Below, in pieces: positions 1 to 24,437 of a stretch of DNA of 42,811 nucleotides. The notes under the pieces are model-generated. The model was not told the origin of the DNA, made no database searches, and saw nothing but the letters and a program-made list of their open reading frames with translations. Source of the DNA: a virus; the IMG/VR virus record IMGVR_UViG_3300031951_000380, positions 1-42,811 of that record; one strand, 5' to 3'. Position 1 is the first letter of the stretch, and each line of letters begins with the position of its first letter. The position numbers and the translations under genes were made by a program.

Positions 1-117
1 CCAGAGAATTTAATGCTAAAATTATACGAGTTAGCACACAAACAAGACATTACACTCAATCAATTAGTTGAAAACATTATTAAGTTCGAAATAGAAAATA
101 GAAAAAATGCAGCGTAA
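1..117 (+). CDS. Partial ribbon-helix-helix-like small protein (C-terminal end)
   Basis: Open from the window edge; the last 38 residues are visible. They read as an amphipathic helix, a turn and a second helix (…LYELAHKQDITLNQLVENI…), with the 'itLNqlvenii' pattern of Arc/CopG-type DNA-binding proteins. If that is right it would be a small dimeric repressor or an antitoxin-like regulator. The stop overlaps the start of the next gene (ATG at 107), so the two are probably translationally coupled. The N-terminal beta strand that would contact DNA lies outside the window, so the fold assignment is tentative. Confidence 0.5.
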   Translation, partial: PENLMLKLYELAHKQDITLNQLVENIIKFEIENRKNAA

Positions 118-649: not shown

Positions 650-1041
650 TTATTAAACAAGATGTACGTCCAAATAAAATGATTTGGGTTACCTTTCGTA
701 AGGAAGGGATCCATTGTTACCCGGCAGCAGCCACAGACACTAACCTAGCAACAGGAGATGAATATGATGTATCGTTCCTTGCTCATCCTCACCGTCATAT
801 TTTTCACTTTCGTGTGTGGATCAGCGTTACTCATAACGACAGAGATATCGAGTTTATCCAATTTAAAAGATGGCTTGAAAAATTGTATAATAGCGAACAA
901 GCTGTATTGTCGCTAGATCATAAAAGTTGCGAAATGATGTCAGATGAATTGTATGACATGATTTCCAATAAGTATCCAGGCAGAGAAGTTTGGATTGAAG
1001 TCTCCGAAGATGGAGAAAATGGTAGTTTTATCAAATATTAA
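646..1041 (+). CDS. Possible QueD/PTPS-like T-fold protein
   Basis: 131 aa. The second half follows the 6-pyruvoyl-tetrahydropterin synthase/QueD (T-fold) pattern. A His cluster at residues 47-51 (HPHRH) precedes a strand 'FHFRVWISV', like HGH-NY-x-V in QueD. Then come 'DIEFIQFKRWLEKL' (like the MVxDFxxLK helix), 'LDHKS' at 90-94 (like LDHxxLN), and a closing 'VWIEVSEDGENGSFIKY' that matches the V-x-V-x-E strand carrying the pterin-anchoring Glu. C24 could be the catalytic Cys. QueD makes 6-carboxy-tetrahydropterin from dihydroneopterin triphosphate, the step between FolE and QueE, and both of those are encoded downstream. The spacing around the His cluster is shorter than in true QueD, so it may be a divergent relative. 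It shares ATGA with the preceding gene. Confidence 0.5.
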   Translation: MIIKQDVRPNKMIWVTFRKEGIHCYPAAATDTNLATGDEYDVSFLAHPHRHIFHFRVWISVTHNDRDIEFIQFKRWLEKLYNSEQAVLSLDHKSCEMMSDELYDMISNKYPGREVWIEVSEDGENGSFIKY

Positions 1042-1063
1042 TAATTAACAACTAAGGAAAAAT

Positions 1064-1303
1064 ATGTCTCAAGAACGTCTTAAAAAATATTTTGTTATGA
1101 AACCTGAAGTAACAAAAATTTTCGATGATCTAGAAGCTTATCATAATTTTTGCAGATTCGAATTGCTGCCTTTTAATCCGGCAGATCTATATAACAAATC
1201 AAGCACTATCTGGAATCAATATCTGCAATCAACTAGACCTCGTAGATGGAAAAACGACAGACCTGGATCATATAACGGTCATAAAAAACACTATACAAGA
1301 TAA
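1064..1303 (+). CDS. Small hypothetical protein, 79 aa
   Basis: Start supported by an AAGGAAA Shine-Dalgarno about 6 bases upstream. The N-terminal half is helical (LKKYFVMKPEVTKIFDDLEAYHNFCRFELL). The C-terminal tail is basic and aromatic (RPRRWKNDRPGSYNGHKK), which could bind nucleic acid. No named family is recognised. Its stop shares a base with the start of the following glycosyltransferase (TAATG), so the pair is co-translated. Confidence 0.75.
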   Translation: MSQERLKKYFVMKPEVTKIFDDLEAYHNFCRFELLPFNPADLYNKSSTIWNQYLQSTRPRRWKNDRPGSYNGHKKHYTR

Positions 1304-2400
1304 TGACAGTCTATATAGTAGATCTTGAGGCAGTAGAAACAAGGTATACTGCCCAATGGAAATCTCATTTACCTAGTATTTTAAAAAAGAAAGGTTATGA
1401 TGTTCAAGTTATATCTGGCCCTGAGGATATTCCTAGTGCCACTACTCCTGGCGCCTTCCTTAATTTTGGCGGCACTAATGTCTATAAGTCTCGTCAAACT
1501 GAAGAGATTAGTAGACTGTTTACTACCGGTAAGATAAAATCATTTGATCACTTTGTGTTTACTGATGCCTGGCATCCCGGTATCATTAATTTAAAGTATA
1601 TGAGCAGTCTGCTTAGTGTTCCAATTAAGATACACGCACTATGGCATGCCGGCAGTTATGACCCTCAGGACTTCTTAGGTCGTCTAATTGGTAACGAACC
1701 TTGGGTAAGACATGCCGAGAAGTCATTTTTTTATGCTATTGATTATAATTACTTTGCTACAAACTTTCATATTGATATGTTTGTACGCAATTTATTGAAC
1801 AACGGGCTGACGGAAAATCCATGGCTAGAAGATGATTTGCAGGATGCGTTAAAGGGTGATTGGCCTAATGTTGTACGCACAGGATGGCCTATGGAATATT
1901 TTCATGACATTTTCACACAATATCAAGGAATGCCTAAGCGTGATTTAATTCTCTTTCCTCACAGACTGGCTCCCGAGAAGCAGGTCAATATTTTTAGAGA
2001 TTTAAAAGAACTGTTACCACAATATGAATTTGTAATTTGTCAAGAACAAGAATTAACAAAAAACGAATATCATAACTTATTAGGCGAAGCTAAGATTGTG
2101 TTTAGTGCTAACCTACAAGAAACCCTAGGCATCAGCTGTTATGAAGGATGCGTACTCAATGCTATTCCTATGGTTCCAGACAGACTTTCATATACAGAAA
2201 TGTATTTTGACACATTCAAATATCCTAGCAACTGGACAGATACTTGGGACAATTATTTGGACCATAGGCAAATGTTGGTAAAAACAATAATAGATCATAT
2301 GACTTTTTACGAAACTAGACTGCCAATGTTGCATAAACAAACGGAGGCATTACGTGAGCAATACTTCGCAGGAACCAATTTATACAATAACCTTAGATGA
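1303..2400 (+). CDS. GT-B-type glycosyltransferase
   Basis: 365 aa, the usual length for a GT-B (group 1) glycosyltransferase. The C-terminal half carries the signature: 'LILFPHRLAPEKQVNIF' (the nucleotide-sugar binding entry strand), then 'VFSANLQETLGISCYEG' near residues 265-282 with the Glu-x7-Glu arrangement (E273, E281) of the GT4-like E-x7-E motif, followed by 'AIPMVPDRLSY'. The N-terminal half holds a Rossmann-like domain (VYIVDLEAVETRYTAQW). It transfers a sugar from a nucleotide-sugar donor; the acceptor is unknown. T4 uses GT-B enzymes to glucosylate DNA, so modified DNA bases or a virion protein are both possible. No leader or membrane segment. It ends 47 bases inside the next gene. 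Confidence 0.75.
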   Translation: MTVYIVDLEAVETRYTAQWKSHLPSILKKKGYDVQVISGPEDIPSATTPGAFLNFGGTNVYKSRQTEEISRLFTTGKIKSFDHFVFTDAWHPGIINLKYMSSLLSVPIKIHALWHAGSYDPQDFLGRLIGNEPWVRHAEKSFFYAIDYNYFATNFHIDMFVRNLLNNGLTENPWLEDDLQDALKGDWPNVVRTGWPMEYFHDIFTQYQGMPKRDLILFPHRLAPEKQVNIFRDLKELLPQYEFVICQEQELTKNEYHNLLGEAKIVFSANLQETLGISCYEGCVLNAIPMVPDRLSYTEMYFDTFKYPSNWTDTWDNYLDHRQMLVKTIIDHMTFYETRLPMLHKQTEALREQYFAGTNLYNNLR

Positions 2401-2749
2401 ACTTGAGCCGTTAAAGCCCGAGGACATTACTGTTACTTGGGATATGAATAGTCTTCCAAGTTTGACTACATCAGACATTATAACATTAACAGGTACACCT
2501 TATAATTCAGGATCTTATACAATAGGCAATATAGAAACAGTAGATTTATCTGGTATTGATTCTTTTACTACTTTTAGTAATTTTTATAAAGACGAGTTTG
2601 ATGGTAGATTTCCAGATTACGAACGTGTTCAAGAAATGTGTAAAGAATATCCTGGACTGGAAATCGCATATCGAAAATTTAAAGAAGTTTATAAAATGGT
2701 TAAAGAAGATTTTGACGGAAAAGAAAGAGAACGTAAAGGATACAAGTAG
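2354..2749 (+). CDS. Hypothetical phage protein, 131 aa
   Basis: Starts at GTG 2354. The choice is supported by a strong GGAGG at 2343-2347, six bases upstream and inside the preceding glycosyltransferase gene, giving a 47-base overlap. The protein is acidic. Its N-terminal half is low in helix and rich in Ser, Thr and Ile (TITLTGTPYNSGSYTIG), and its C-terminal half is charged and helical (YRKFKEVYKMVKEDFDGKE). It may be a structural or scaffold-like small protein, but no family is recognised. Confidence 0.7.
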   Translation: MSNTSQEPIYTITLDELEPLKPEDITVTWDMNSLPSLTTSDIITLTGTPYNSGSYTIGNIETVDLSGIDSFTTFSNFYKDEFDGRFPDYERVQEMCKEYPGLEIAYRKFKEVYKMVKEDFDGKERERKGYK

Positions 2750-2750
2750 T

Positions 2751-3119
2751 ATGACGACGTTTACTATACCTACCACAACTACTGGCCAAATTTATGTGTC
2801 TGCTGGTAACGGTGGAAGCGGTGGAACAGGTTCGTTTACTACAAGTACAAGTACAACTACTCAATTCAATAACAGTAAGGGCAAACCTGTTATGGAAATT
2901 CCAAATAGCGACGACCCTAGTATCAAAATTAACGGCAGAATAGAATGGAATGGTGAAGACCTCCATAATAGATTAAAACGAATAGAAACTATGTTGAACA
3001 TTCCTACAAGAGATGTTATAATGGAAGAGAAGTATTCAAAACTTAAGAAGATTAATGATGAATACAACAAAGCGTTAGCAGAATATAAAACTTGGGAAAC
3101 TTTAAAGGGGTCAAAATGA
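2751..3119 (+). CDS. Hypothetical protein with Thr/Gly-rich N-terminus and C-terminal coiled coil
   Basis: The ATG at 2751 is chosen, right after the upstream stop, over a longer frame that would overlap the upstream gene by 194 bases. 122 aa. Residues 1-40 are Thr/Ser/Gly-rich low complexity (TTTTGQIYVSAGNGGSGGTG). The middle (KPVMEIPNSDDPSIKINGRIEWNGEDL) resembles short beta-tip modules of virion proteins. The C-terminal third is a predicted coiled coil (LKKINDEYNKALAEYKTWETL). It ends in an ATGA overlap with the next gene. A minor virion component is plausible but unproven. Confidence 0.65.
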   Translation: MTTFTIPTTTTGQIYVSAGNGGSGGTGSFTTSTSTTTQFNNSKGKPVMEIPNSDDPSIKINGRIEWNGEDLHNRLKRIETMLNIPTRDVIMEEKYSKLKKINDEYNKALAEYKTWETLKGSK

Positions 3120-3328
3120 TTGAACAATTAATAACAGATCAAGCTGCATGGAAGCTTCGGTTAAAAATTAACGACTGTGTAAAGCCAGACGGCTTTAACC
3201 ATCTTATGTTTACTGGAGAACAGTATAACGACGAAGGTGAATTAACTAATACTAGCACTTACGATTTTTTCCTTAGCAAAGAGGAAATTGGAAAGCTTTG
3301 GACAACCTTAGCAAACGGTGTACGATGA
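3116..3328 (+). CDS. Small hypothetical protein, 70 aa
   Basis: Start at ATG 3116, overlapping the upstream stop (ATGA) and preceded by an AAAGGGG Shine-Dalgarno. The sequence alternates strand and helix (LKINDCVKPDGFNHLMFTGEQYNDEGE) and ends with a helix (KEEIGKLWTTLANGV). No family is recognised. It ends in another ATGA overlap with the PRTase gene, so it belongs to one translationally coupled string with its neighbours. Confidence 0.65.
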   Translation: MIEQLITDQAAWKLRLKINDCVKPDGFNHLMFTGEQYNDEGELTNTSTYDFFLSKEEIGKLWTTLANGVR

Positions 3329-3870
3329 AAAAAATTTACTTAACTTGGAGAAACGTTCAAGGACACGTTCTTGAACTAGCTAAACAAATTAACAATGATA
3401 ATTGGCGTCCGGATTATATTGTAGGTATTACAAGAGGAGGTGCTGTTCCAGCAGTAATGCTTAGTCAATATCTTGATGTTCCTATGCGACCATTACAGGT
3501 CAGTTTACGCGACGGTGGAGATTGTGTCAGCGACTTAGGTATGGCCGAAGATGCATTTGGTTATGTTCCTGAAGAAGTACGAGGGGAGTCAGGTACTCAA
3601 ACTGATCCTGCTTATCGAAAAAAAATTCTTATTGTTGACGACATCAACGACACCGGTGCTACTATAGCGTGGATTAAGAAAGATTGGCCTAGCGGATGTT
3701 TACCAAATCACTTTGCTTGGGATACTGTTTGGAACAATAATGTTCGTTTTGCTGTAATTCATAATAATCTTGCCAGCAAAGAAGAAGTAGATTACTCAGC
3801 TAATGAAATTAACAAGGCTGAAGAGGATTGCTGGATAGTATATCCTTGGGAGAACTTTTGGCGTGGATAA
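3325..3870 (+). CDS. Phosphoribosyltransferase (type I PRTase fold)
   Basis: 181 aa from ATG 3325 (ATGA overlap with the upstream gene). It carries the PRPP-binding signature ILIVDDINDTGAT at residues 101-113, with two Asp followed by a Thr-rich loop, and the earlier PPi loop 'IVGITRGGAVPA' at 32-43. These place it with purine or pyrimidine PRTases, which make nucleotides from a free base and PRPP or remove bases in reverse. The substrate hood is not diagnostic: hypoxanthine, xanthine or a modified base are all possible. A link to base salvage for phage DNA synthesis is inferred from the neighbouring nucleotide genes. Confidence 0.8.
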   Translation: MKKIYLTWRNVQGHVLELAKQINNDNWRPDYIVGITRGGAVPAVMLSQYLDVPMRPLQVSLRDGGDCVSDLGMAEDAFGYVPEEVRGESGTQTDPAYRKKILIVDDINDTGATIAWIKKDWPSGCLPNHFAWDTVWNNNVRFAVIHNNLASKEEVDYSANEINKAEEDCWIVYPWENFWRG

Positions 3871-4243
3871 TAAAGAACTAGATCGTTTCTGCTGTAATTG
3901 GGATATTCAATTGAGGCCTAGTTCACGCACTATTAGAAAGGCTAAACCACCACAGGTTAGCACTTATCAGGATGCACATGATTTTTATTTTGCTACAGAA
4001 GATTTAGAGTGTTATGATATTCTAATACCTAAAGATAACTTTCATGCCTTAGCCGAAATTGATCAAAGAATGAATGACGTAATTGTTAAATCTCGTGGAG
4101 ATCAAGATTACATCAATCATATAAAGCGTAAAGAAATGATTGAGATTAAAGCAAGAAATAATAACCCTGCTGTTAAAAAGGCCTGGGATAATTATTCTAC
4201 ATTAATGAATATGGTTTGGAACGAGTATGCTGACAGATATTGA
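3863..4243 (+). CDS. Hypothetical protein, 126 aa
   Basis: GTG start at 3863, overlapping the PRTase stop by eight bases, with GGGAGA about nine bases upstream. Mostly helical and charged (YINHIKRKEMIEIKARNNNPAVKKAWDNYSTLMNMV at the C-terminus), with two Cys near the start (FCCNW). The C-terminal helix resembles a small coiled-coil oligomerisation element. No named family. It overlaps the HIT gene by 17 bases, consistent with one operon. Confidence 0.65.
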   Translation: MDNKELDRFCCNWDIQLRPSSRTIRKAKPPQVSTYQDAHDFYFATEDLECYDILIPKDNFHALAEIDQRMNDVIVKSRGDQDYINHIKRKEMIEIKARNNNPAVKKAWDNYSTLMNMVWNEYADRY

Positions 4244-4631
4244 AAAGGCCTTAAATGAAAAAAGAGCACCGTGGACAGAAATTGAATACAGAACTAAAGA
4301 CTTCTGGGTCTTCAGAGACGCTTATGCAGTTACCCCAGGGCATTTGTTATTTGTGCCTACCCAAGAAAACTGGACTAATCTCTGGGAGTGCTACAAAGCA
4401 GCCTACAAGTTCGGACACGAGGGTGTTGAAGCTGAAAGGTGGGATGCTTTTAACATCGGCCAAAATGTTGGAGAAGCAGCTGGACAAACAGTGATGTATC
4501 CCCACGTACACATGATACCACGACGTATAGGCGATATGGAGGATCCAAGAGGTGGAGTTAGACATGTTATACCCGAAAAAGGAAACTATAAAAAATCCAC
4601 ACACAGTATGGATCAATTGGCAGCACCCTGA
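4227..4631 (+). CDS. HIT-family nucleotide hydrolase/transferase-like protein
   Basis: 134 aa, full length for a histidine-triad protein. The HIT core is clear: 'WDAFNIGQNVGEAAGQTV' at 72-89 followed by 'YPHVHMIPRRIGD' at 91-103 and 'DPRGGVRHVIP'. HIT proteins act on dinucleoside polyphosphates or nucleotide phosphoramidates through a covalent nucleotidyl-His. Canonical members read H-x-H-x-H here. In this protein the first His is Tyr91, while H93 (expected nucleophile position) and H95 are kept, so catalysis is probably retained but may be altered. A role in nucleotide housekeeping during infection is inferred. It overlaps both neighbours. Confidence 0.8.
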   Translation: MLTDIEKALNEKRAPWTEIEYRTKDFWVFRDAYAVTPGHLLFVPTQENWTNLWECYKAAYKFGHEGVEAERWDAFNIGQNVGEAAGQTVMYPHVHMIPRRIGDMEDPRGGVRHVIPEKGNYKKSTHSMDQLAAP

Positions 4632-4788
4632 TATGCCGTGGACTGAAATCTGTGCTAAGGTAATGGAAGTATTTGGATTACCTGGTCACAGATATACTAG
4701 TCATCCTACTACACACTTTATGACATTTACATTTAAATCAGAAAAAGATCGTGTATTATGTGAAATATTATTAAGCGAGTATTTGTAA
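4564..4788 (+). CDS. Small hypothetical protein, 74 aa
   Basis: I chose ATG 4564, with GGTGGAG six to eight bases upstream, over a GTG 12 bases earlier. The frame overlaps the HIT gene by 68 bases. Sequence features: 'VWINWQHPDMPWTEICAKVMEVFGLPGHRYTSH', then a strand 'HFMTFTFKSEKDRVLCEILLSEYL', suggesting a small alpha/beta fold. Unrecognised. The stop shares a base with the following dehydrogenase start. Confidence 0.6.
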   Translation: MLYPKKETIKNPHTVWINWQHPDMPWTEICAKVMEVFGLPGHRYTSHPTTHFMTFTFKSEKDRVLCEILLSEYL

Positions 4789-5585
4789 TGTATGAAAAAA
4801 TAGGAATTATTGGTCATGGCTATGTTGGAGAAGCAATAGCACAAAGCATAGTGCCTCCATTTCAAGCAGTTATTATTGATCCAGCCAAGGGATGGAACAC
4901 AACTTACTATGATCTAAAAAAAGAATGTTCTTGTGTGTTTATATGTGTCCCAAGTCCGCAAGGTGCAGACGGACAATGTGATACTAGTATTATTGAGAGT
5001 GTTTTAAAAGAATTGCAATTTGGATTTACTGGAACTATTATTAGTAAAGTAACTGCGCCGCCAGACTTTTACGAAGACTGGGGTAAACTGTTACCTAATT
5101 TAGTTTACGTTCCAGAATTTCTTAGAGCCTCATCTGGTATAACAGACTTTGCTAGAGCAGAATGGACTATAGTTGGCGGCACTGTTGGTGCTTATCAAAG
5201 AGAAGCAATAAGAATTATTAAACAACTGCAAACCGAACTTAGGCATATTGAACTATGCGGTATCGGTGAAGCAGCATTTGTCAAATATTCCATTAACAGT
5301 TTCCTTGCTACAAAAGTTGTCTTTATGAATGAACTATATCAATTATCCGATAAGAAAGGTTACAATTGGAGGCAACTGTCTAATTTGATTAATATGGACA
5401 AGCGCATAGGCGATAGTCATATGCAAGTGCCCGGGCCTGACAAGTATTATGGGTTCGGTGGAGCATGTTTTCCTAAAGATACAGAAGCACTATTAAAATA
5501 TGCAGATGATCATAGTGTAAACCTAAATACTCTTGATGCAGCCGTAAAGAAAAATACTCTTTTAAGGTTGACTAAACCTAAATAA
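4788..5585 (+). CDS. UDP-glucose/GDP-mannose dehydrogenase-like protein (short form)
   Basis: The N-terminal NAD-binding Rossmann motif is GHGYVG at residues 9-14. 'FICVPSPQG' at 51-59 fits the cofactor/nucleotide loop, and the catalytic signature 'YGFGGACFPKD' at 221-231 carries nucleophile Cys227. Enzymes of this family oxidise a nucleotide-sugar 6-hydroxyl to a uronic acid in two NAD-dependent steps. At 265 residues it is much shorter than the usual ~390-450 because the C-terminal sugar-nucleotide domain is missing after the catalytic Cys. It may act as a reduced enzyme or on a different substrate. It could supply uronate donors to the many glycosyltransferases in the window (inference). 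A promoter for folE overlaps its last codons. Confidence 0.8.
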   Translation: MYEKIGIIGHGYVGEAIAQSIVPPFQAVIIDPAKGWNTTYYDLKKECSCVFICVPSPQGADGQCDTSIIESVLKELQFGFTGTIISKVTAPPDFYEDWGKLLPNLVYVPEFLRASSGITDFARAEWTIVGGTVGAYQREAIRIIKQLQTELRHIELCGIGEAAFVKYSINSFLATKVVFMNELYQLSDKKGYNWRQLSNLINMDKRIGDSHMQVPGPDKYYGFGGACFPKDTEALLKYADDHSVNLNTLDAAVKKNTLLRLTKPK

Positions 5586-5596
5586 CATTGTAAAAT
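5568..5596 (+). promoter_or_regulatory. Candidate sigma70-type promoter for folE
   Basis: TTGACT at 5568-5573, a 17-base spacer, and TAAAAT at 5591-5596. This is one base off consensus in each box with ideal spacing, 19 bases before the folE ATG. An imperfect dyad AGGTT-gacta-AACCT surrounds the -35 box. The -35 box lies within the last codons of the dehydrogenase gene. Confidence 0.5.
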
Positions 5597-5614
5597 AGCA
5601 ATAAAGGAAAACTT

Positions 5615-6379
5615 ATGGTATATAACAAAATGTATGAAAGCAACGACGAGACTGGCTTAGATGCTATGGCCGGAGATGGTGGCTACCAAGAATCAACATT
5701 ATCTGCTGTACTACGTGCTAAAATGAAAAGAGAAGGAAAGCGTTTCTGGGCAGGAGACAATATCAGCGACTATCTTCATGACAGCGACAAAGAGCACTTA
5801 ATTAATGAAGCTACAGAAGCATTTGAAGGTGTACTAGACACACTGCTGATTGATCGCGAAAACGATCCTAACAGTAAAGGCACAGCCCGCAGGCTTGCTA
5901 AAATGTATTTCAACGAAATAATGGCAGGAAGATATGACCCGGCGCCGGACTGTACAGCATTTCCTAACGATTCAGAAGAACGATATGAAGGAATGTTAGT
6001 AGTACGTAGCGAATTAAGAAGTATGTGTAGTCATCATCATCAACCAGTTAATGGTGTAGCATATATTGGTATCATTGCTGCTAATAAACTTATTGGCTTA
6101 TCTAAGTACACTCGAATCGCTCAATGGTGTGCTAGACGCGGTACTCTACAAGAAGAACTGGCCAACGATATTGCAAGAGAAATTAGTCGAGCTACTGACG
6201 CTAAAGATGTAGGTGTGTACATTCAGGCCACACATGGCTGCTGTGAGAATCGAGGTATTATGGCACATAGTAGTCTTACACAGACTACAGTATTAAAAGG
6301 TGCGTTCAAAGATGATCAAGGCACTAAAAAAGAATTCTTTGATAACATCAAACTACAACAAGATTTTGCTCCAAGATAA
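5615..6379 (+). CDS. folE: GTP cyclohydrolase I
   Basis: 254 aa; ATG 5615 with AAAGGAAA upstream. It converts GTP to dihydroneopterin triphosphate, the first step of folate and of 7-deazaguanine (queuosine/preQ0) synthesis. Zinc ligands are visible: C138 and H141 in 'MCSHHHQPVNGVAYIGI', and C209 in 'ATHGCCENRG', the equivalent of HMCxxxRG. The substrate-binding run 'LIGLSKYTRIAQWCARR' at 159-175 and 'LQEELANDIA' complete the family pattern. The extra ~40-residue N-terminus is typical of variable FolE leaders. With QueE at 7.7 kb and a QueD-like ORF at 0.65 kb, a 7-deazaguanine role is more likely than folate alone (inference). It has its own likely promoter. Confidence 0.95.
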   Translation: MVYNKMYESNDETGLDAMAGDGGYQESTLSAVLRAKMKREGKRFWAGDNISDYLHDSDKEHLINEATEAFEGVLDTLLIDRENDPNSKGTARRLAKMYFNEIMAGRYDPAPDCTAFPNDSEERYEGMLVVRSELRSMCSHHHQPVNGVAYIGIIAANKLIGLSKYTRIAQWCARRGTLQEELANDIAREISRATDAKDVGVYIQATHGCCENRGIMAHSSLTQTTVLKGAFKDDQGTKKEFFDNIKLQQDFAPR

Positions 6380-6400
6380 TAAAATGAAAGAAACTTAAAT

Positions 6401-6679
6401 GTGACTTTAATTAACAAAGATGATATAATAGAAGTAGATGAAGATCAGTATCTTTGTTTAACAGGAACACTTGAAGAACAATTTAGTTTTCAAATTATAA
6501 ATGGAGAAAAATGGGATCTACTAGGAGATGAGGAATTTCCTGTCGACTGGTGGCCCGAAAGAAGAGAAGCTAACGATTACTATATTGGATGGACTGCCGA
6601 AGAATTTTTATTATGGGGGCATTCGCCGTTAATAGATGATCTATGCAACTATCGTAATTTATTAAACAAGGAGAAATAA
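6401..6679 (+). CDS. Small hypothetical protein, 92 aa
   Basis: GTG start at 6401; an ATG two bases earlier runs straight into a stop. The Shine-Dalgarno is weak (GAAAGAAA). The protein is very acidic and Trp-rich (DDIIEVDEDQYLCLTG; PVDWWPERREANDYYIGW). The acidic, compact profile is like small phage inhibitors or DNA-mimic proteins, but nothing more specific can be said. First of five short ORFs between folE and queE. Confidence 0.6.
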   Translation: MTLINKDDIIEVDEDQYLCLTGTLEEQFSFQIINGEKWDLLGDEEFPVDWWPERREANDYYIGWTAEEFLLWGHSPLIDDLCNYRNLLNKEK

Positions 6680-6680
6680 A

Positions 6681-6869
6681 ATGAATATAGGCGACAAGCT
6701 AGCAAAAGTAGGAGATAGTTTTACTATCAATATGTATGACAACGGATTTATGGTAGAAGTGTCGGGACGTAATTCCGACGGCGACTGGGCAACTGCTAAA
6801 GTACTTTGTCAAAATTTAGAACAGGTAGTTTCTATAGTTACTGAAGTTTCATCAATGGAAAGAGAGTAA
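6681..6869 (+). CDS. Small hypothetical protein, 62 aa
   Basis: ATG 6681 with a strong AAGGAG seven bases upstream, located over the end of the previous gene. Predicted beta-rich with one helix: 'GDSFTINMYDNGFMVEVSGRNSDGDWATAKVLCQNLEQVVSIVTEV'. No family is recognised. The pattern of two strands followed by a helix recurs in the next ORF, hinting at related small proteins. The stop shares a base with the next start. Confidence 0.65.
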   Translation: MNIGDKLAKVGDSFTINMYDNGFMVEVSGRNSDGDWATAKVLCQNLEQVVSIVTEVSSMERE

Positions 6870-7087
6870 TGGACAAAAAAGTCGAAGATGTTATTCATAG
6901 GATGAAAAATCTTAGAGAGTACAAAGTAGTACGTAATGTCTCCGAAGGATTTGTTCTTAATGGCAAGATGCCGTATGATGTTAAGCTTGACAAAAACAAT
7001 GTATTGACAGTAACATTAATGGCTGTTGATAGAGAAGAAGCAGAACGTCGCGTTAGCGAATTTATTGCAGGAATGAACGATGATTAA
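6869..7087 (+). CDS. Small hypothetical protein, 72 aa
   Basis: ATG 6869 overlaps the upstream stop (TAATG); AAAGAGAG lies just upstream. 'KVVRNVSEGFVLNGKMPYDVKLDKNNVLTVTLMAVDREEAERRVSEFIAGM' gives strands followed by a charged C-terminal helix. Function unknown. It overlaps the next gene by eight bases. Confidence 0.65.
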   Translation: MDKKVEDVIHRMKNLREYKVVRNVSEGFVLNGKMPYDVKLDKNNVLTVTLMAVDREEAERRVSEFIAGMNDD

Positions 7088-7385
7088 AAAATGGTTTAAG
7101 AAAAAATTCAGAGATTGGTCTAAGGAAGCGTGGGACGCCGGTATGGAAAAATCACAATCTTTAGGCATTGGTATTCCTAACAGTGTTTATGAAACTCGTC
7201 AATTGAATAGCGATGCTGTTTTACAGTTTACTGTATACAATGCTGTTGGCGGTAAAGTAGTAGAATTTAGATATCATGATCGTAACAGTGATCGTAGTCA
7301 TAATCAGATGTATGTTATTGGTAAGGATGAAGACTTTGGAGAGAAAATAGCTAAGATAGCCACATTAGAGGTATTAAAGCAATGA
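7080..7385 (+). CDS. Hypothetical protein, 101 aa
   Basis: ATG 7080 with GCAGGAA upstream. Basic amphipathic N-terminus (IKKWFKKKFRDWSKEAWDAGMEKS), which could bind membrane or nucleic acid peripherally, followed by a beta-rich body (VLQFTVYNAVGGKVVEFRYHD) and a terminal helix. No signal peptide cleavage site or transmembrane span. It overlaps the next gene by four bases. No family recognised. Confidence 0.65.
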   Translation: MIKKWFKKKFRDWSKEAWDAGMEKSQSLGIGIPNSVYETRQLNSDAVLQFTVYNAVGGKVVEFRYHDRNSDRSHNQMYVIGKDEDFGEKIAKIATLEVLKQ

Positions 7386-7735
7386 CACCGCAGATACCTG
7401 CAGAAGGAATTTATAAAACGGGCGAATGGGGGGACTCAGTGTCTTACCGTATTGCCTGTAATTGTCACGATGCAAATCATTCTCACGATCTTTGGGTAGA
7501 AGCCAGCGACATAGGTATAGATATTACAATCTATACCACAGTTAAATCTAAATGGTGGTCTATTAATCGACTAAAACAAATTTGGATATTATTAACTAAG
7601 GGCTATATAGAGACAGAGTCGTCGATTTCTCTTACAACACAACAAGCTCTTAATTATTCTGAAGTTTTAAAATCTTCTATAGAATATGTAGACAAATTAA
7701 GAGAAAGTTATATTAGAAAGAAAAAAGATGAGTAA
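7382..7735 (+). CDS. Hypothetical protein, 117 aa
   Basis: ATG 7382 inside the upstream stop, with an AGAGG stretch about ten bases earlier. It contains 'CNCHDANHSHDLWVEASDIGIDITIYTT': a Cys-x-Cys-His followed by two His could bind metal. A hydrophobic-aromatic segment (KWWSINRLKQIWILLTKGYIE) follows, then a helical C-terminus. It resembles small phage proteins of unknown role found beside nucleotide genes. It overlaps queE by eight bases, so it is likely co-expressed with it. Confidence 0.65.
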   Translation: MTPQIPAEGIYKTGEWGDSVSYRIACNCHDANHSHDLWVEASDIGIDITIYTTVKSKWWSINRLKQIWILLTKGYIETESSISLTTQQALNYSEVLKSSIEYVDKLRESYIRKKKDE

Positions 7736-8585
7736 AATAAAAATAGCAGAGCTTTTTTATAGCATACAAGGCGAAGGACGCTTTATGGGTGTTCCTTCTG
7801 TTTTCTTACGTACATACGGTTGTAATTTTAAATGCGCCGGATTTGGTATGCCACGCGGTGAGATTAGTATTGAAGCAGATGATATTGCATATACACATGC
7901 CAATATTGAATCTTTTCATAAGTACGAAGAACTGCCGTTAGTTACTACAGGCTGTGATAGTTATGCAAGTTGGCATCCAGCATTTAAAGATCTAAGCCCT
8001 ATGCTAACTGTAGATGCTATAGTTGATAGAATAATGGAATTACTTCCTTATAATAAATGGCGCAGTGAGCATCTTGTTATTACAGGCGGTGAACCTTTGC
8101 TAGGTTGGCAACGTGCTTATCCAGATTTGTTAAGTCACGATAAAATGAAAAAATTAAAAGATATAACATTTGAAACAAATGGTACTCAAGAAATATCTAA
8201 AGATTTTAGAAAGTACTTAGAAAAGTGGACACACAAACAAGGGTATCACAATCTTACGTTTAGCGTGAGTCCAAAACTAGGTGTAAGCGGAGAGAAGAAA
8301 GAAGACGCTATACGTCCAGATATCGTTAGAGAATATGAAGAACTAGGACACACTTATCTAAAATTCGTAGTCGCCACTGAAGAGGATCTTAAAGATGCAG
8401 AACAGGCAGTTCAAGAATATCGCGATAACGGTTTCGAAGGTCACATTTATCTTATGCCTGTCGGGGGTGTTGAACGGGTGTACAATCTTAATAATAGAAC
8501 AGTGGCACAGATGGCAATGCAAAAAGGATGGCGGTACAGTGATCGACTTCAAGTGCCGTTATTTAAAAACGAATGGGGAACCTAA
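7728..8585 (+). CDS. queE: 7-carboxy-7-deazaguanine synthase (radical SAM)
   Basis: 285 aa. It matches QueE: the N-terminal substrate motif 'ELFYSIQGEGRFMGVPSVFLR' (residues 8-28), the cluster region 'GCNFKCAGF' (31-39), and 'LVITGGEPLLGWQ' for SAM binding. QueE converts 6-carboxy-tetrahydropterin to 7-carboxy-7-deazaguanine, the precursor of preQ0. The third cluster Cys is displaced. C32-x3-C36 is followed by Phe39 where Cys is usual, and the 'xCDSYA' element with C76 comes about 40 residues later, after an insertion. The motif is therefore C-x3-C-x39-C, an expanded version of the variant spacing known in some QueE enzymes. QueC is not visible in the window and may be elsewhere or supplied by the host. 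Confidence 0.9.
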   Translation: MSKIKIAELFYSIQGEGRFMGVPSVFLRTYGCNFKCAGFGMPRGEISIEADDIAYTHANIESFHKYEELPLVTTGCDSYASWHPAFKDLSPMLTVDAIVDRIMELLPYNKWRSEHLVITGGEPLLGWQRAYPDLLSHDKMKKLKDITFETNGTQEISKDFRKYLEKWTHKQGYHNLTFSVSPKLGVSGEKKEDAIRPDIVREYEELGHTYLKFVVATEEDLKDAEQAVQEYRDNGFEGHIYLMPVGGVERVYNLNNRTVAQMAMQKGWRYSDRLQVPLFKNEWGT

Positions 8586-9034
8586 TGAAAAACTTTATTA
8601 AAAAAATAACGGGCATCGAACGATTAGAAAAAGAAAGAGCTGAATCATTAGCTCGTTTAGCTGAAGCTAAAGCTAGCGAAGAAGCAGCTAAAAAGGCAGA
8701 AGAAGAAGCTCGTCAACAAGAAGAATTGGCTAAAATGACGCCAAAAGAACGAGCTACTGCTAACCAAGAACCTTATATTGCTGTTTTAGATACTAAGGTC
8801 AATCCAGAAAATCCTAGAAATGGCTTTTTTGAACTTGACTGGAACGAATACTTTATTGTACAATTAAGACAAGCGGGTTATGGTTTAGATGGTGATCCAG
8901 ACGAGCTTGTTGTTGATTTATGGTTCCGTGACCTTGCTCGTAATATCTTAGCCGAAGAAGGTCAAGATATTACTCGAGGAGCCGGATATATTAACGTTGT
9001 TCCAATTTCAAAAGGCAAATTAGAAGTTTCATGA
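8585..9034 (+). CDS. Hypothetical protein with N-terminal coiled coil, 149 aa
   Basis: ATG 8585, overlapping the queE stop by one base, with GGGG eight bases upstream. Residues 12-55 form a long charged coiled coil (EAKASEEAAKKAEEEARQQE). The C-terminal 90 residues are a compact domain: 'YIAVLDTKVNPENPRNGFFELDWN', 'YFIVQLRQAGYGLDGDPDELVVDLWFRDLARNI', 'GAGYINVVPI'. It sits directly before RNase H with a four-base overlap, so it may work with replication or repair proteins, but no family is recognised. Confidence 0.7.
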   Translation: MKNFIKKITGIERLEKERAESLARLAEAKASEEAAKKAEEEARQQEELAKMTPKERATANQEPYIAVLDTKVNPENPRNGFFELDWNEYFIVQLRQAGYGLDGDPDELVVDLWFRDLARNILAEEGQDITRGAGYINVVPISKGKLEVS

Positions 9035-10035
9035 CATATATTCTAGTAGATACTGCTAATACATTTTTCCGTGCTAGGCACGTAGTTCGTGGAGATGCTG
9101 ATACTAAACTTGGTATGGCTCTCCATATTACTTTTAACAGTATTAAAAAGGCCTGGCAAGATTTTGAGGGCAAGCATGTTGTATTCTGTCTTGAAGGTCG
9201 ATCATGGCGTAAAGACGTTTATACGCCCTATAAGGCTAATAGAGCCGAAACTCGAGCTGCTATGACTCCAAAAGAAGCAGAAGAAGATAAACTCTTTTGG
9301 GAAACCTTTGATAAGTTTAAGGAATTCATTACTGAGAAATCTAATTGTACTGTGTTACAACACCCACAGTTAGAAGCAGATGATCTTATTGCAGGATGGA
9401 TACAAAGTCATCCTCACGACAGTCATGTTATTATTAGCACTGACAGCGACTTTGCACAACTAATTTCTCCAACTGTTCGGCAATACAACGGCGTAGCAAA
9501 TGTAACTACTACGCACAAAGGATATTTTGACGATCGAGGAAAAGAAGTAATTGATAAAAAAACTAAGCAGCCGAAGCCGGCACCTAATCCACAATGGCTG
9601 CTATTCGAAAAATGTATGCGAGGTGATACAAGCGATAATGTGTTTTCAGCATACCCAGGAGTTCGCGTTAAAGGAACAAAAAATAAAGTAGGACTAACAG
9701 AAGCGTTTGAAGATAGAAACTCAAAAGGATTCGCGTGGAACAATCTCATGTTACAACGTTGGATGGATCATAACGGTGTTGAACATAGAGTGCTCGACGA
9801 CTATAATAGAAATGTACAGCTCTGTGATCTAACTGCACAACCTGATCATATTAGATCTTTGATTAAAGAAACTATTCATGCACAGACTAGTTCTCCTAAG
9901 AAAATTGACCAAGTTGGAATTCGAATGTTAAAATTTTGTAATTTATTTGACTTACAAAAAATTTCAGACAACATTCAACAATATGCAGAACCATTCGCTG
10001 CCAAATATACTAGTAAAGAAGTTGAACTAATTTAA
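9031..10035 (+). CDS. rnh: T4-type RNase H / 5'-3' exonuclease (FEN family)
   Basis: 334 aa, close to T4 RNase H length. It removes RNA primers from lagging-strand fragments and has 5'-3' DNA exonuclease and flap activity. Acidic metal ligands of the FEN fold are visible: D7 in 'YILVDTANTFF', E115/D117/D118 in 'LEADDLIAGW', D138/D140 in 'ISTDSDFAQL', and D199/D202 in 'MRGDTSDNV' (198-204). The basic arch region 'RKDVYTPYKANRAE' at 60-73 fits. A helix-hairpin-helix-like part follows the catalytic core. This is one of the clearest T4-core markers in the window. ATGA overlap with the preceding gene suggests co-expression. Confidence 0.92.
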   Translation: MTYILVDTANTFFRARHVVRGDADTKLGMALHITFNSIKKAWQDFEGKHVVFCLEGRSWRKDVYTPYKANRAETRAAMTPKEAEEDKLFWETFDKFKEFITEKSNCTVLQHPQLEADDLIAGWIQSHPHDSHVIISTDSDFAQLISPTVRQYNGVANVTTTHKGYFDDRGKEVIDKKTKQPKPAPNPQWLLFEKCMRGDTSDNVFSAYPGVRVKGTKNKVGLTEAFEDRNSKGFAWNNLMLQRWMDHNGVEHRVLDDYNRNVQLCDLTAQPDHIRSLIKETIHAQTSSPKKIDQVGIRMLKFCNLFDLQKISDNIQQYAEPFAAKYTSKEVELI

Positions 10036-10052
10036 ATCTATAAAGGATACAA

Positions 10053-10523
10053 ATGAATTTAAAAGCTAAACCCATTATAGAAGGAAAGTATTGGATAATA
10101 GAAAAAGATGGTGAAAAGGTTGCTATCTTACATAAAAAAGAAAACAACAAGTTTATGTTAAGTTCCAAAGACGGCGAAAAATATTTTAATCGTAAAGACG
10201 AACTAACTAAAATTTTTGGAAAAGATTTCTTTGGAAAATCTATCAAAACTAAAATCTCTTCAATAGAAGTAAGAGATGTTTACGGATTTCCTACACCATG
10301 TCATCCATACAATCCTCTTTTTGATATTAAGAGAAAATTACCTTTGTTTACAAAGAGTAGTCAAAGTAAAAGTTTATACTGTGCAGGATATTATACCATT
10401 AGATTTGATAAAGGATGGGTAAAATCGTTCTGTCCTAAACTAATCACTATTGAAAGATATGAATCCAGAGGACCTTTTAAAACTGAATTAGAAATGAAAC
10501 AGGTACTTAGTCATGCAAAATAA
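10053..10523 (+). CDS. Hypothetical phage protein, 156 aa
   Basis: ATG 10053 with AAAGGA seven bases upstream. The N-terminal half looks like a small beta-barrel ('GKYWIIEKDGEKVAILHKKENNKFMLSSKDGEKYF'). The middle carries 'VRDVYGFPTPCHPYNPLFDIKRKLPLF', and the C-terminus repeats a strand-rich pattern ('CAGYYTIRFDKGWVKSFCPKLITIERYES'). The look is of a conserved small T4-like phage protein, but I cannot name a function. It overlaps the next ORF by 11 bases. Confidence 0.75.
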   Translation: MNLKAKPIIEGKYWIIEKDGEKVAILHKKENNKFMLSSKDGEKYFNRKDELTKIFGKDFFGKSIKTKISSIEVRDVYGFPTPCHPYNPLFDIKRKLPLFTKSSQSKSLYCAGYYTIRFDKGWVKSFCPKLITIERYESRGPFKTELEMKQVLSHAK

Positions 10524-10749
10524 TACTATTAACACATTACCTATTCAGCAGTTTATACAACAGGTAAGGGCTGCAGAACTAAGCCAACAAAGAGAAATTA
10601 AGTTAGATATAAAAACTGCTAAAAATTTAGCATTTTGTTTAGGTGAAATTAGTGCTAAACTGCTGCAAGACTATACAGAAGTTCTTTCTGCACTACAAAA
10701 AACATCTGGAGAATCGGTTACTATAAAAATGGACGGTGGTGGTTTTTAA
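10513..10749 (+). CDS. Small hypothetical protein, 78 aa
   Basis: ATG 10513 within the end of the upstream gene. Almost entirely helical: 'LPIQQFIQQVRAAELSQQREIKLDIKTAKNLAFCLGEISAKLLQDYTEVLSAL', ending in a Gly-rich tail. It resembles a small helical adaptor. No family recognised. Its stop lies 44 bases before the next start, and that gap holds a late promoter and hairpin. Confidence 0.65.
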   Translation: MQNNTINTLPIQQFIQQVRAAELSQQREIKLDIKTAKNLAFCLGEISAKLLQDYTEVLSALQKTSGESVTIKMDGGGF

Positions 10750-10759
10750 CTAAAAAATG

Positions 10760-10767
10760 GATAAATA
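10760..10767 (+). promoter_or_regulatory. T4-type late promoter (GATAAATA)
   Basis: GATAAATA matches the T4 late -10 box TATAAATA except for the first base, and the same octamer precedes two structural genes on the other strand. In T4 geometry transcription would start about six bases after the box, near 10773, giving a leader of about 20 bases. Confidence 0.6.
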
Positions 10768-10795
10768 TATACGTACATTTCGGAGACGTATATAT
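10765..10795 (+). promoter_or_regulatory. Start-codon hairpin overlapping the late promoter
   Basis: A perfect 10-base inverted repeat: ATATATACGT at 10765-10774 and ACGTATATAT at 10786-10795, with an 11-base loop. The loop holds the GGAG ribosome site (10782-10785) and the 3' arm holds AU of the start codon (ATG 10794). The 5' arm starts inside the late -10 box, so only read-through transcripts would carry it whole. Confidence 0.7.
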
Positions 10796-11078
10796 GTCGA
10801 GACCAAAACCAAAAGTTCTTCTGGAACAAGTAAATAAAAAAAATTATAAATGCGATCAAATTTTAGAAGCAGAAGCAGTTTGGGCTGTCTTCTATAAAGG
10901 TAGTCCTTTCAATTTAAAAAGTTTTAATAGTTTAACTAGTTACCCTGGACCAAAATATAAAAAAGTCAGTTTTAGTAACCCCGGACATGCACACAATCTT
11001 GCTAAAAAATTAAATCAAATGTTTAATTGTAAAGATTTTCAAGTTTATAAATTAACATCCGGCGATCCAGTTAAATGA
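10794..11078 (+). CDS. Hypothetical protein, 94 aa, with late-type control
   Basis: ATG 10794 with GGAG eight bases upstream. Basic small protein: 'RPKPKVLLEQVNKKNYKCDQILEAEAVWAVFYKGSPFNLKSF', then 'YPGPKYKKVSFSNPGHAHNLAKKLNQMFNC'. The alternation suggests a compact alpha/beta fold with a helix-ended core. No family recognised. Its control region (late promoter within a hairpin covering the start codon) implies strictly late translation even if early transcripts read through. Late expression suggests a role in assembly, packaging or lysis (inference). ATGA overlap with the next gene. Confidence 0.7.
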   Translation: MSRPKPKVLLEQVNKKNYKCDQILEAEAVWAVFYKGSPFNLKSFNSLTSYPGPKYKKVSFSNPGHAHNLAKKLNQMFNCKDFQVYKLTSGDPVK

Positions 11079-11470
11079 TAGCCAAGGAAACATACACAAA
11101 AATTTTTCTTAAACAAAAAGAAAAATCTTGTGATCCTGCTAACATAAAAATTCATATGTTCAAATGGTGGCAAAGTCACCGTTCAAAAAAAGAAGGCGGA
11201 TTGAGATTATCCGATGAAGGATACGATTTCTTAACCAAAGAGCTAGAGTTAAGAAGTTACGAAGTTAAGTTCACTGAACCAATCGAACTAAGTCCCCAAA
11301 CAATCATATTTTTTGATAGATATATTGATTGTCCTTATTATCTTACTAACAGTTATTTGGTTGTTTTTTCTGAAAAAAAAGCTTTTGAACTTTACATGTT
11401 TTCGGACGACATTCGAAAATACGGATTGGTTAAAGCTATGAAAAACAGAGAAGAAGTCCAAAATGGCTAA
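11075..11470 (+). CDS. Hypothetical protein, 131 aa
   Basis: ATG 11075 overlapping the upstream stop. Helical, basic N-terminus (TKIFLKQKEKSCDPANIKIHMFKWWQSHRSKKEGGLRLSDEGYDFL) that reads like a winged-helix-type 'recognition' segment. It is followed by 'LSPQTIIFFDRYIDCPYYLTNSYLVVFSEKKAFELYMFSDDIRKYG', a strand-helix module. A DNA-binding or structural role is possible. Probably co-transcribed with the gene before it from the late promoter. The next gene has its own promoter 7 bases after this stop. Confidence 0.7.
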   Translation: MIAKETYTKIFLKQKEKSCDPANIKIHMFKWWQSHRSKKEGGLRLSDEGYDFLTKELELRSYEVKFTEPIELSPQTIIFFDRYIDCPYYLTNSYLVVFSEKKAFELYMFSDDIRKYGLVKAMKNREEVQNG

Positions 11471-11477
11471 AAAGTAT

Positions 11478-11506
11478 TTGACAGTTGCCTAACTCTGTCA
11501 TATAAT
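11478..11506 (+). promoter_or_regulatory. Strong sigma70-type promoter with spacer dyad
   Basis: Consensus TTGACA (11478-11483), 17-base spacer, consensus TATAAT (11501-11506). TGACAG at 11479-11484 and CTGTCA at 11495-11500 form an inverted repeat through the spacer. A direct repeat CACAATTT (11518-11525 and 11529-11536, 11-base period) follows in the leader. Both look like possible operator sites. Confidence 0.8.
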
Positions 11507-12660: not shown

Positions 12661-12689
12661 TTGACACCGCCTACGGGCGGTGTTATAAT
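12661..12689 (+). promoter_or_regulatory. Strong sigma70-type promoter with hairpin filling the spacer
   Basis: Consensus TTGACA (12661-12666), 17-base spacer, TATAAT (12684-12689). The spacer holds an 8-bp perfect stem, ACACCGCC (12664-12671) and GGCGGTGT (12676-12683), around a TACG loop, a UNCG-type tetraloop when transcribed. In the upstream transcript this would be a very stable 3' hairpin, but it lacks a real U tract, so termination is uncertain. Confidence 0.8.
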
Positions 12690-15121: not shown

Positions 15122-15786
15122 AAGTAAAGTTAATATCACATAGTACACCATCTCCTGAAATTCTTGCACAAGGGCTCGAAGATGCACAAGATCTTATAGC
15201 TTTTTGTGCAAGAGTAAGTAATCCAAGTAATCAGTTCAATACAGGAACCAGCGAAAAATTAATTAACTATCTAGTTAAACATAAACATTGGAGTCCGCTT
15301 GAAATGGTATCAGTGTGTTTAGAAATCGAAACAACACGAGACATTGCAAGGCAAATGCTACGACATCGTAGTTTTAGCTTTCAAGAATTTAGTCAACGCT
15401 ACGCTGATCCAACAAAGGACCTTAACTTTGTACATAGAGAGGCACGACTCCAGGATACTGCTAATCGACAGAACAGTATAGAAACCGACGATGACGACTT
15501 ACAACAACAATGGCGTCGGTGGCAGAACAATGTTATTACTGAAGCACGTATGGCATATAATTGGGCTATTGAAAACGGTATAGCTAAAGAACAAGCTCGT
15601 GCTGTATTGCCGGAAGGGCTTATTGAAAGTCGTTTATATATGAACGGTACATTGCGTAGCTGGATACATTATATCGAACTTCGTTCCTCTAATGGAACAC
15701 AAAAAGAACACATGGAAATTGCTCGTGCATGTGCAGAAGTAATTTCTAAAGTAGTTCCTATGATCAATAATTTTATTACTGATTAA
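15118..15786 (+). CDS. thyX: FAD-dependent thymidylate synthase
   Basis: 222 aa. The ThyX signature RHR-x7-S-x-R is exact at residues 82-94 ('RHRSFSFQEFSQRY'). 'HWSPLEMVSVCLEIETTRDIARQ' before it and 'ARAVLPEGLIESRLYMNGTLRSW' near the C-terminus, which binds dUMP, fit the family. ThyX makes dTMP from dUMP with methylene-tetrahydrofolate and FAD/NADPH, supplying phage DNA synthesis. T4 uses the unrelated ThyA-type enzyme (td), so this is a marine-phage-type replacement. Its stop overlaps the stop of a convergent gene by 11 bases, with no terminator between them. Confidence 0.95.
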   Translation: MKVKLISHSTPSPEILAQGLEDAQDLIAFCARVSNPSNQFNTGTSEKLINYLVKHKHWSPLEMVSVCLEIETTRDIARQMLRHRSFSFQEFSQRYADPTKDLNFVHREARLQDTANRQNSIETDDDDLQQQWRRWQNNVITEARMAYNWAIENGIAKEQARAVLPEGLIESRLYMNGTLRSWIHYIELRSSNGTQKEHMEIARACAEVISKVVPMINNFITD

Positions 15787-16894
15787 ACCATTCAGTAAGT
15801 TTTTCTTTAAGATTTTTTCCGATCTGCTCTTGAACAATCTGTCTATGCTGATTGTTCTTTTTTAGCCTCTCGTTGAGATTAGTAACGGACATTATGGAAT
15901 CTTTGTTCTTTAAAAGACGTTCTAGCTCTTCTGCTACCATTTTTATTCGATTACCCGGATTTGGTTCTAAATCGTAAGAATGATCTACAATATCATCAAA
16001 GACATCAAACCCGTGATCCCTAACAGCTTGCACATGCCCTTTAACTGTTACAAATAATGGTATCTGATAAGATTGAAAAGCAAAAAACGTTTTCTCTGTT
16101 AAAAATACTCTATCACTAAAAATACCTCCACAGTAGTTAGTACATTTTGTTCCAGGTATAATAGAATCGTCATAAGTAGATTCTAAAACTACTTTTACTA
16201 TTGAATCTATTGCTTCGGGCGGGTAAGTGACTACATACTGATTTCTTTTTACTATTCCGTCAGCATACATTGGAAACAAATGTGTGTATTCTGCAGGTAT
16301 TAATTCTTTATATAATTCGTCCCCGTAATCGTCTGAAACTCCAAAACTCACACACCCTAAATTTAAAAGGTCTCGTTTAACTAATTCTAAAGTAAATAAT
16401 AATCTAAAATTTTTTGGATTTCTTGATAAAGAATTGTAAAAAGTTTTTCTTTGAGAAATAGGCGTTAGTGCTCGCACTACACTTGTTAGATCCAATACAG
16501 GATTAATAACAAAAGGATTTGTACCTATGTGAGGGTAACTTCCGTCTGTAGTATATCCTGCATCAACAACCATTATATCTTCAATATTTTTTCCTGTTAT
16601 TTCTAAAATAAAGTCTACTATTTCTTTCCATCTGTAATTTGGTAACGCTTCATTTCTGACCATTAATAAAAGTTTAGGGTATTCTTTTAATTTCTTTATG
16701 CTATGGCCAACAATAAAAAGTTTTATCCTGCCAAGGTTATCCCAATATTTTAAAGCTGCTACATCAAAATTAATTACGCCTATTTTACGTTTTCCTCTAC
16801 CTTCTAGAAGATGAACTATGTCTCTGTTTAACCATACCCAATCTTTATCTTTAACTCTCTCTTGTAGTACGTTTAAATGAGATTTACTTAGCAT
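15776..16894 (-). CDS. Glycosyltransferase-like protein, 372 aa
   Basis: I chose the ATG at 16894, which overlaps the upstream radical SAM gene by 11 bases; the longer frame would overlap it by 80. The C-terminal third holds 'FLTEKTFFAFQSYQIPLFVTVKGHVQAVRDHGFDVFDDIVDHSYD', a '(S/T)EKT…QxPxxV…GF' pattern I associate with GT-B/fucosyltransferase-like nucleotide-sugar binding ends. The N-terminal part reads as a Rossmann-like domain with 'VINFDVAALKYWDNLGRIKLFIVGHSI'. No signal peptide. The family assignment is by motif look only. Last gene of the 18.6→15.8 kb leftward operon. Convergent with thyX. Confidence 0.55.
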   Translation of the reverse strand: MLSKSHLNVLQERVKDKDWVWLNRDIVHLLEGRGKRKIGVINFDVAALKYWDNLGRIKLFIVGHSIKKLKEYPKLLLMVRNEALPNYRWKEIVDFILEITGKNIEDIMVVDAGYTTDGSYPHIGTNPFVINPVLDLTSVVRALTPISQRKTFYNSLSRNPKNFRLLFTLELVKRDLLNLGCVSFGVSDDYGDELYKELIPAEYTHLFPMYADGIVKRNQYVVTYPPEAIDSIVKVVLESTYDDSIIPGTKCTNYCGGIFSDRVFLTEKTFFAFQSYQIPLFVTVKGHVQAVRDHGFDVFDDIVDHSYDLEPNPGNRIKMVAEELERLLKNKDSIMSVTNLNERLKKNNQHRQIVQEQIGKNLKEKLTEWFNQ

Positions 16895-18044
16895 AAGTTT
16901 TATCTCCAGGAAATAACGGTAGTTCAGTATTAGGTGCTCTTTTAGGAATTTTACTATCGGCACTACTTACACAACTTGGAGTAATACAAGGTTTAGGACT
17001 ATCAAATAATCTAAAACCTGTTTCTATATTTCCCAATGGCACATCGTGACAGCTATAACTTCGTTTGATGCTTCCGTCTGGTTCGCGTATAATAATACCT
17101 CGATATCCACTACTACATTCCCATCCTTCAAATTTGTTAAAATTAAAGGCATTAAATCGTTCGGCCTGATCCATGTACCACACCTTTTGTTCTTTATCTA
17201 TAAATTCTACTTGAAAGTGTTGTGGGATATTTTGATTTTCTGCTTTATAAATTGGATCAGGCATCTTAACAAAAGTAGGAAATGGTCTTGAGACTAGTTT
17301 AGCAGTGGCAGCTTTAGCTTCAGTAAACGCCCGTTGAGGCATTCCGTTATGTAACTTTTCTAACATTTCAGAAGTATAACCATCTACTACCCGACTAGCA
17401 GTGGGATCGCTTTGAGGCTTTAATGTAACATTAATACCCCTATTATGAAAGTAAAGAGCGTTTTCATAATCTTTATCAAACCACTCTGGTACCATGACCA
17501 TATTAATTGTAACTTGTACATCATGGTCTTGACAAAGTTCTAATTTATCTCCAAATTCTTTTAGCTTCTCTTTAGTGTCAACATGTTCAGTGTGTAGACT
17601 AGCAGTTATACTTGCACGGTGGAATTTACTAACAGCAGGACAATATTCATCGTTAAACCATTTTACAGTTCTGCTCATATTAGTTGTCATATGAACACTG
17701 GTGTAATTTGTATTTGGGGCATCATTATTCAAATGATTTAAAATATCTATGTACCCTGGATGAAAGGTTGGTTCGCCTCCACTAAGGCTAAAATGAAAAC
17801 TATTAAATCCTCTTTCTCTAGCCTGTCGTTTAATTTCGTCTACAGTTTTAATACATAATTCTGTTGGTCTATGATCTTTTTTATCACTCCGTGCATAAGG
17901 CCAACAATAGCTACAACGATAGTTACAATATCTGCCTAATAACCAACTTACTGTAAAAAGGTCTCTATATAACATATTTCGTTGTCCAACACGAACTATA
18001 TTTTCAAACGGTATTTTTTTAAAATCGTATTCTGATTTTTCCAT
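16884..18044 (-). CDS. Radical SAM protein with C-terminal Cys-rich extension
   Basis: 386 aa. Radical SAM cluster motif C40-x3-C44-x2-C47 in 'RYCNYRCSYCWPYA', SAM motif GGEP at 89-92 ('LSGGEPTFHPG'), and the barrel strands 'HFSLSGG' and 'ASITASLHTEHVDT'. The C-terminus has further Cys ('WECSSGYRG', 'SYSCHDVPLGN', 'KPCITPSCVSS'), which suggests an auxiliary Fe-S cluster like those of SPASM-type enzymes that modify peptides or sugars. The substrate is unknown. It starts one base from the end of the SDR gene upstream and overlaps the downstream glycosyltransferase-like gene, forming a three-gene set. Confidence 0.85.
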   Translation of the reverse strand: MEKSEYDFKKIPFENIVRVGQRNMLYRDLFTVSWLLGRYCNYRCSYCWPYARSDKKDHRPTELCIKTVDEIKRQARERGFNSFHFSLSGGEPTFHPGYIDILNHLNNDAPNTNYTSVHMTTNMSRTVKWFNDEYCPAVSKFHRASITASLHTEHVDTKEKLKEFGDKLELCQDHDVQVTINMVMVPEWFDKDYENALYFHNRGINVTLKPQSDPTASRVVDGYTSEMLEKLHNGMPQRAFTEAKAATAKLVSRPFPTFVKMPDPIYKAENQNIPQHFQVEFIDKEQKVWYMDQAERFNAFNFNKFEGWECSSGYRGIIIREPDGSIKRSYSCHDVPLGNIETGFRLFDSPKPCITPSCVSSADSKIPKRAPNTELPLFPGDKTYAK

Positions 18045-24417: not shown

Positions 24418-24437
24418 GGAAATATTTAGTTATTATG

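Follow-up and report, generated by a model that had tools for sequence, protein, structure and literature searches.

The window, by which we mean the whole 42,811-nucleotide stretch of viral DNA, contains a 94-aa ORF that closes a long run of co-directional genes, an order which fits read-through by early/middle transcription. A perfect inverted repeat overlaps both the start codon of this ORF and a T4-type late promoter box. The features of the locus, all on the plus strand, are listed below together with the evidence for each.

107–10749, plus strand: co-directional, tightly packed genes from which read-through RNA presumably comes (gene calls).
10760–10767, plus strand: T4-type late −10 box GATAAATA (few such boxes in the window; box in relatives; late sigma factor in relatives).
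10765–10774, plus strand: 5' arm of the putative inhibitory hairpin, sharing 3 bases with the end of the late box (sequence, covariation, chimera test).
10773, plus strand: predicted late transcription start, approximate +1 (T4 late-promoter geometry).
10775–10785, plus strand: loop with the Shine-Dalgarno (SD) sequence GGAG at 10782–10785 (sequence; length variable among relatives).
10786–10795, plus strand: 3' arm, made up of the SD-AUG spacer plus the A and T of the start codon (sequence, covariation).
10794–11078, plus strand: 94-aa ORF, widespread in T4-like jumbo phages, without family match (relatives; AlphaFold2 pLDDT 89).
11075–11470, plus strand: 131-aa ORF overlapping the stop of the 94-aa ORF by ATGA, the probable second gene of a late unit.
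11478–11506, plus strand: perfect sigma-70-type promoter (TTGACA-17-TATAAT) for the gene that follows, an AAA ATPase gene.

The two arms, ATATATACGT and ACGTATATAT, are exact reverse complements and form a perfect 10-bp stem around the 11-nt loop ACATTTCGGAG. The start codon occupies 10794–10796; the A and T belong to the 3' arm, and the G lies just beyond it. The late box is identical to the T4 sequence TATAAATA in seven of eight bases, and the stem begins within it. A sequence-only reading of this DNA had described the stem, the SD in the loop, the start codon in the 3' arm and the box at the 5' arm, and all four were found at the positions it gave. The sequence NATAAATA is present only five times in the window, four times intergenically and immediately 5' of an ORF. 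Of its two minus-strand occurrences, one is followed by a gene with weak matches to virion structural proteins and the other by a gene matching a phage protein of unknown function, within a block containing tail-fibre-like genes. None of 20 related records, one of them 278 kb long, contains the extended motif ATAAATATATRCGTA more than once. Regarding other roles for the hairpin, a terminator was rejected, as there is no U-tract and the start codon is overlapped, and so was a structure of the T4 gene 25 type that shortens the SD-AUG distance, as the linear spacing is already 8 nt. An Rfam search returned nothing above the gathering threshold.

Perfect stems of ≥10 bp with loops of 3–20 nt occur five times in the window, compared to 1.5 ± 1.0 in dinucleotide shuffles, and the local fold of the hairpin region has a z-score of −1.7 (single sequence). 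Taken alone, the stem is thus only mildly unusual, and these modest values, together with its AT-rich composition, are what a chance hairpin in AT-rich DNA would have in its favor. We regard chance as extremely unlikely, a reading already largely refuted by the covariation and by the chimeras built from real late promoters, both described below. The hairpin stands out beyond chance because of these two tests, because its position coincides with a late box and a start codon, and because the extended motif is rare.

The product of the 94-aa ORF has no entry in Pfam, PHROG, NCBIfam, PADLOC or Rfam; weak contact with a Pfam spore-protein model was seen for 3 of 67 family members. Relatives are encoded in at least 588–600 IMG/VR stretches for each of three queries, and they are present in the jumbo phages PA5oct and its kin, Atu_ph07, SCTP-2 and Phosso; with the SCTP-2 relative as query, no relatives were retrieved among viral contigs. 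The predicted fold of the protein is confident (AlphaFold2, as listed above). A search with this predicted structure matched no solved structure and suggested no function, and the only two confident viral matches are both uncharacterized phage proteins.

A late-type box lies within 80 nt 5' of the gene in 222 of 226 distinct upstream regions, and a gp55-like late sigma factor is encoded by 13 of 16 large relatives (PHROGs). It was not found in the window, a 42.8-kb fragment that was searched in part. For the jumbo phages CBB and GAP32, ATAAATA has been reported before structural genes (PMC5259590). A co-directional ORF ends ≤150 nt 5' of the gene in 216 of 224 relatives, and in 152 of the 224 an ATGA overlap contains the start of the following ORF. 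Of 191 relatives, 125 have sigma-70-like sites scoring 11–12 of 12 downstream (within 1.5 kb), compared to 7 of 180 with such sites upstream. In the window, no terminator was called between 10500 and 10794. Based on the co-directional ORFs upstream, the ATGA overlap and the sigma-70-like promoters downstream, the 94-aa and 131-aa genes probably make up a two-gene late island inside early/middle transcription, which is the same situation as that of T4 late genes under hairpin control (PMC2988022).

We calculated the cost of opening the start region as the ensemble energy needed to keep positions −15 to +3 unpaired, once for RNA beginning at −70 (read-through) and once for RNA beginning 6 nt after the box (late). 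Shuffling the dinucleotides in the 5 nt behind the box leaves the arm intact, so the control consisted of chimeras in which the part before +1 was swapped for that of other late promoters. In the main lineage (n = 163) the median cost is 9.7 kcal/mol for read-through and 3.4 kcal/mol for late RNA, while chimeras add only 1.9 kcal/mol. Divergent relatives without the ATRCGT stem (n = 61) give 9.4 and 2.7 kcal/mol, with 2.2 kcal/mol added by chimeras, and other late promoters (n = 58) give 5.2 and 2.5 kcal/mol and do not differ from chimeras. The difference to other late promoters is significant for both groups (Mann-Whitney p = 4e-11 for the main lineage and 5e-5 for the divergent relatives, relatedness ignored); the cleaned control set still contains one family member, L262, which works against the claim. 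The leader in the window costs 11.9 kcal/mol to open in read-through RNA, a value reached by no chimera. A start at about 10773 drops eight of the ten 5'-arm bases, leaving a cost of about 5 kcal/mol, and starts at about 10771 or any later position are enough to relieve the fold. In the same test T4 e yields 16.6 vs 1.6 kcal/mol and T4 49 yields 15.6 vs 3.4 kcal/mol (read-through vs late), so that the likeness to T4 late-gene control proposed from the sequence is borne out by the same signal. The predicted occlusion of the SD and AUG, as the folding of the two leader types indicates, depends on the RNA 5' of the predicted +1.

Taken one by one, roughly half of the divergent members and one third of the main lineage fall short of significance by opening cost; by the stem test, the main lineage reaches 87%. 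In some relatives (L021, L027, L085, L223–L225) the stem is lost or the signal absent. The lock is therefore common but not universal, and in this form we strongly favor it for the 94-aa gene among the relatives. Upstream of the 94-aa gene in L205, L221 and L085 a long hairpin begins in the late box; it would not directly hide the start codon, because it ends before the SD.

The stem of the main lineage contains a variable pair, which is G-C in 89 leaders, A-U in 37, G-U in 5 and A-C in 1 (Fisher p = 4e-26, relatedness ignored). Changes on the gene tree number about 21 at the 5' base, 22 at the 3' base and only 25 for the pair as a whole; only five independent contrasts are well supported, typically with four concordant and none opposite. 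Because a MAFFT alignment of all leaders slid the 3' arm, pair counts were limited to leaders of one architecture. In these 64 leaders 95.9% of cells are paired, and 40 double changes were observed compared to 17.9 in shuffles, with slid helices performing far worse. All double changes come from two of the eleven pairs, and seven of the eleven are invariant. The expectation that changes in one arm would be compensated in the other thus holds for the main lineage, where the stem keeps its covariation, and fails in a minority of relatives with uncompensated changes (e.g. L021, L027, L223–L225).

An inverted repeat that overlaps a promoter could also be a DNA operator: a dimeric repressor would bind this dyad at the late promoter, and the RNA fold would be a by-product. 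In T4, I-TevI likewise acts on DNA to repress the late promoter of its own gene (PMC2988022). However, the arm cores of the main lineage lie 8 to 19 nt apart, with variable loops, a range which a rigid dyad would not tolerate, and the unrelated stems of the divergent relatives share nothing but RNA pairing with the start region. A DNA operator is therefore very unlikely. Many divergent members have stems of unrelated sequence, and their start is occluded only when the RNA 5' of the predicted late start is included. In L270 a 12 bp stem is formed by TATGTTTAATCT and AGATTAAACATA, and in L245 ACCTCTTTT and AAAAGAGGT pair over the SD; in both the late box lies between the arms, so that a late start would remove the 5' arm.

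The same relatives bear on a further possibility, in which the overlap with the late promoter is secondary and the hairpin serves either as an RNA thermometer or as an RNA operator bound by a phage protein, perhaps a RegA-like repressor or the 94-aa product itself. Hairpins in initiation regions are usual targets of repressors, and the fold search matched the 94-aa protein to no solved structure. A protein-binding RNA, however, needs a conserved loop and stem, and such conservation is missing in the divergent relatives; moreover, the late box is found either at the 5' arm or in the region separating both arms, so that the operator would be absent from late RNA. We consider this explanation highly improbable.

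The hairpin is instead very probably an RNA timing lock that is opened by the late promoter built into it. We propose that early/middle RNA polymerase would pass from the upstream genes into the 94-aa gene, and that the read-through RNA would keep the 5' arm, paired with the SD-AUG spacer and the start of the AUG, so that initiation by ribosomes would be inefficient. Later in infection, polymerase carrying a gp55-like sigma factor would start from GATAAATA at about 10773, within the 5' arm, if the geometry of T4 late promoters applies. With eight of ten arm bases gone no hairpin could form, which would leave a translatable leader with 8 nt between GGAG and the AUG. Overlapping by ATGA, the 131-aa gene would probably be released together with the 94-aa gene. 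That a late start escapes the hairpin, as first read from the letters of the window, is supported by the late box, the gp55-like sigma factor, the +1-dependent occlusion, the covariation and the read-through context.

Hairpin-locked late genes with an embedded late promoter have been published for T4 e, soc, 49 and I-TevI (PMC3014915; PMC2988022); the mechanism is already known, and what we describe is very probably this T4 e/49/I-TevI control on a new gene. Gene 49 (endonuclease VII) is a late gene lying in early/middle transcription (PMC3014915), and as in the window, a hairpin covers the SD and start codon and has the late box, AATAAATA, at its 5' arm. Gene and stem are different, and in the window the loop contains the SD, with the SD-AUG spacer forming the 3' arm. 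For gene e (lysozyme), as predicted here, the early RNA is locked and the 5' strand is absent from late RNA (PMC3014915), with late promoter and structure predicted in related phages too; unlike the gene studied here, e has the SD itself paired, two late promoters and a lysis enzyme as product. The homing endonuclease genes of T4 and Aeh1 (I-TevI, I-TevII, I-TevIII, segB, mobE) are late genes in early/middle polycistronic RNA and have a hairpin over the start, one arm of which is removed by a late promoter (PMC2988022). These genes are mobile, whereas the 94-aa gene is highly conserved and its neighbors are largely fixed. Among the control late promoters the strongest were L047:883-1012, L372:15609-15708 and L077:27-126, where strong hairpins cover the late box and the start of endonuclease-like genes in related jumbo phages (HNH-like, GIY-YIG-like and zinc-finger type, judged by eye); they resemble T4 I-TevI.

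Our findings suggest that the T4 trick of placing a late promoter in a hairpin extends to jumbo phages, on a widespread uncharacterized gene, and they single out one gene pair among the thousands of uncharacterized genes of these phages. The stem sequences have changed, but selection appears to have preserved the logic of the lock, and this suggests that early expression carries a cost. That the 94-aa product is toxic is a guess: deletion of the I-TevI hairpin did not reduce T4 viability when thymidine was supplied (PMC3014915; PMC2988022), and the lock alone is therefore no proof of toxicity. As a tentative idea, for which the chances are somewhat below even, the 94-aa and 131-aa proteins may be an undescribed late-only functional pair of T4-like jumbo phages, for instance in lysis, packaging or as a shut-off factor, and making them too early may be so costly that the lock was rebuilt many times with unrelated stems over a large radiation. 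Start-region pairing that is lost once the RNA before +1 is removed also provides a computable signature for strictly late genes in uncultured phages.

Further observations concern the surroundings of the locus. A second copy of GATAAATATATGCGTACATTA was found 5' of a homologue of the 156-aa gene of the window (10053–10523) in L021 (3152–3230), L036, L039, L066 and L068; it has no 3' arm, another GC-rich hairpin lies between the copy and the SD, and it looks like a duplicated late leader. A second perfect sigma-70 promoter (TTGACA-17-TATAAT) is located at 12661–12689 of the window, 5' of a DUF2201 metallopeptidase/VWA gene, and in many relatives this gene and the AAA ATPase gene come as a pair after the late island. 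The window also carries a QueE-like gene (7728–8585) and, on the minus strand, at least three radical-SAM-like genes at 15776–18044 and 23011–25625.
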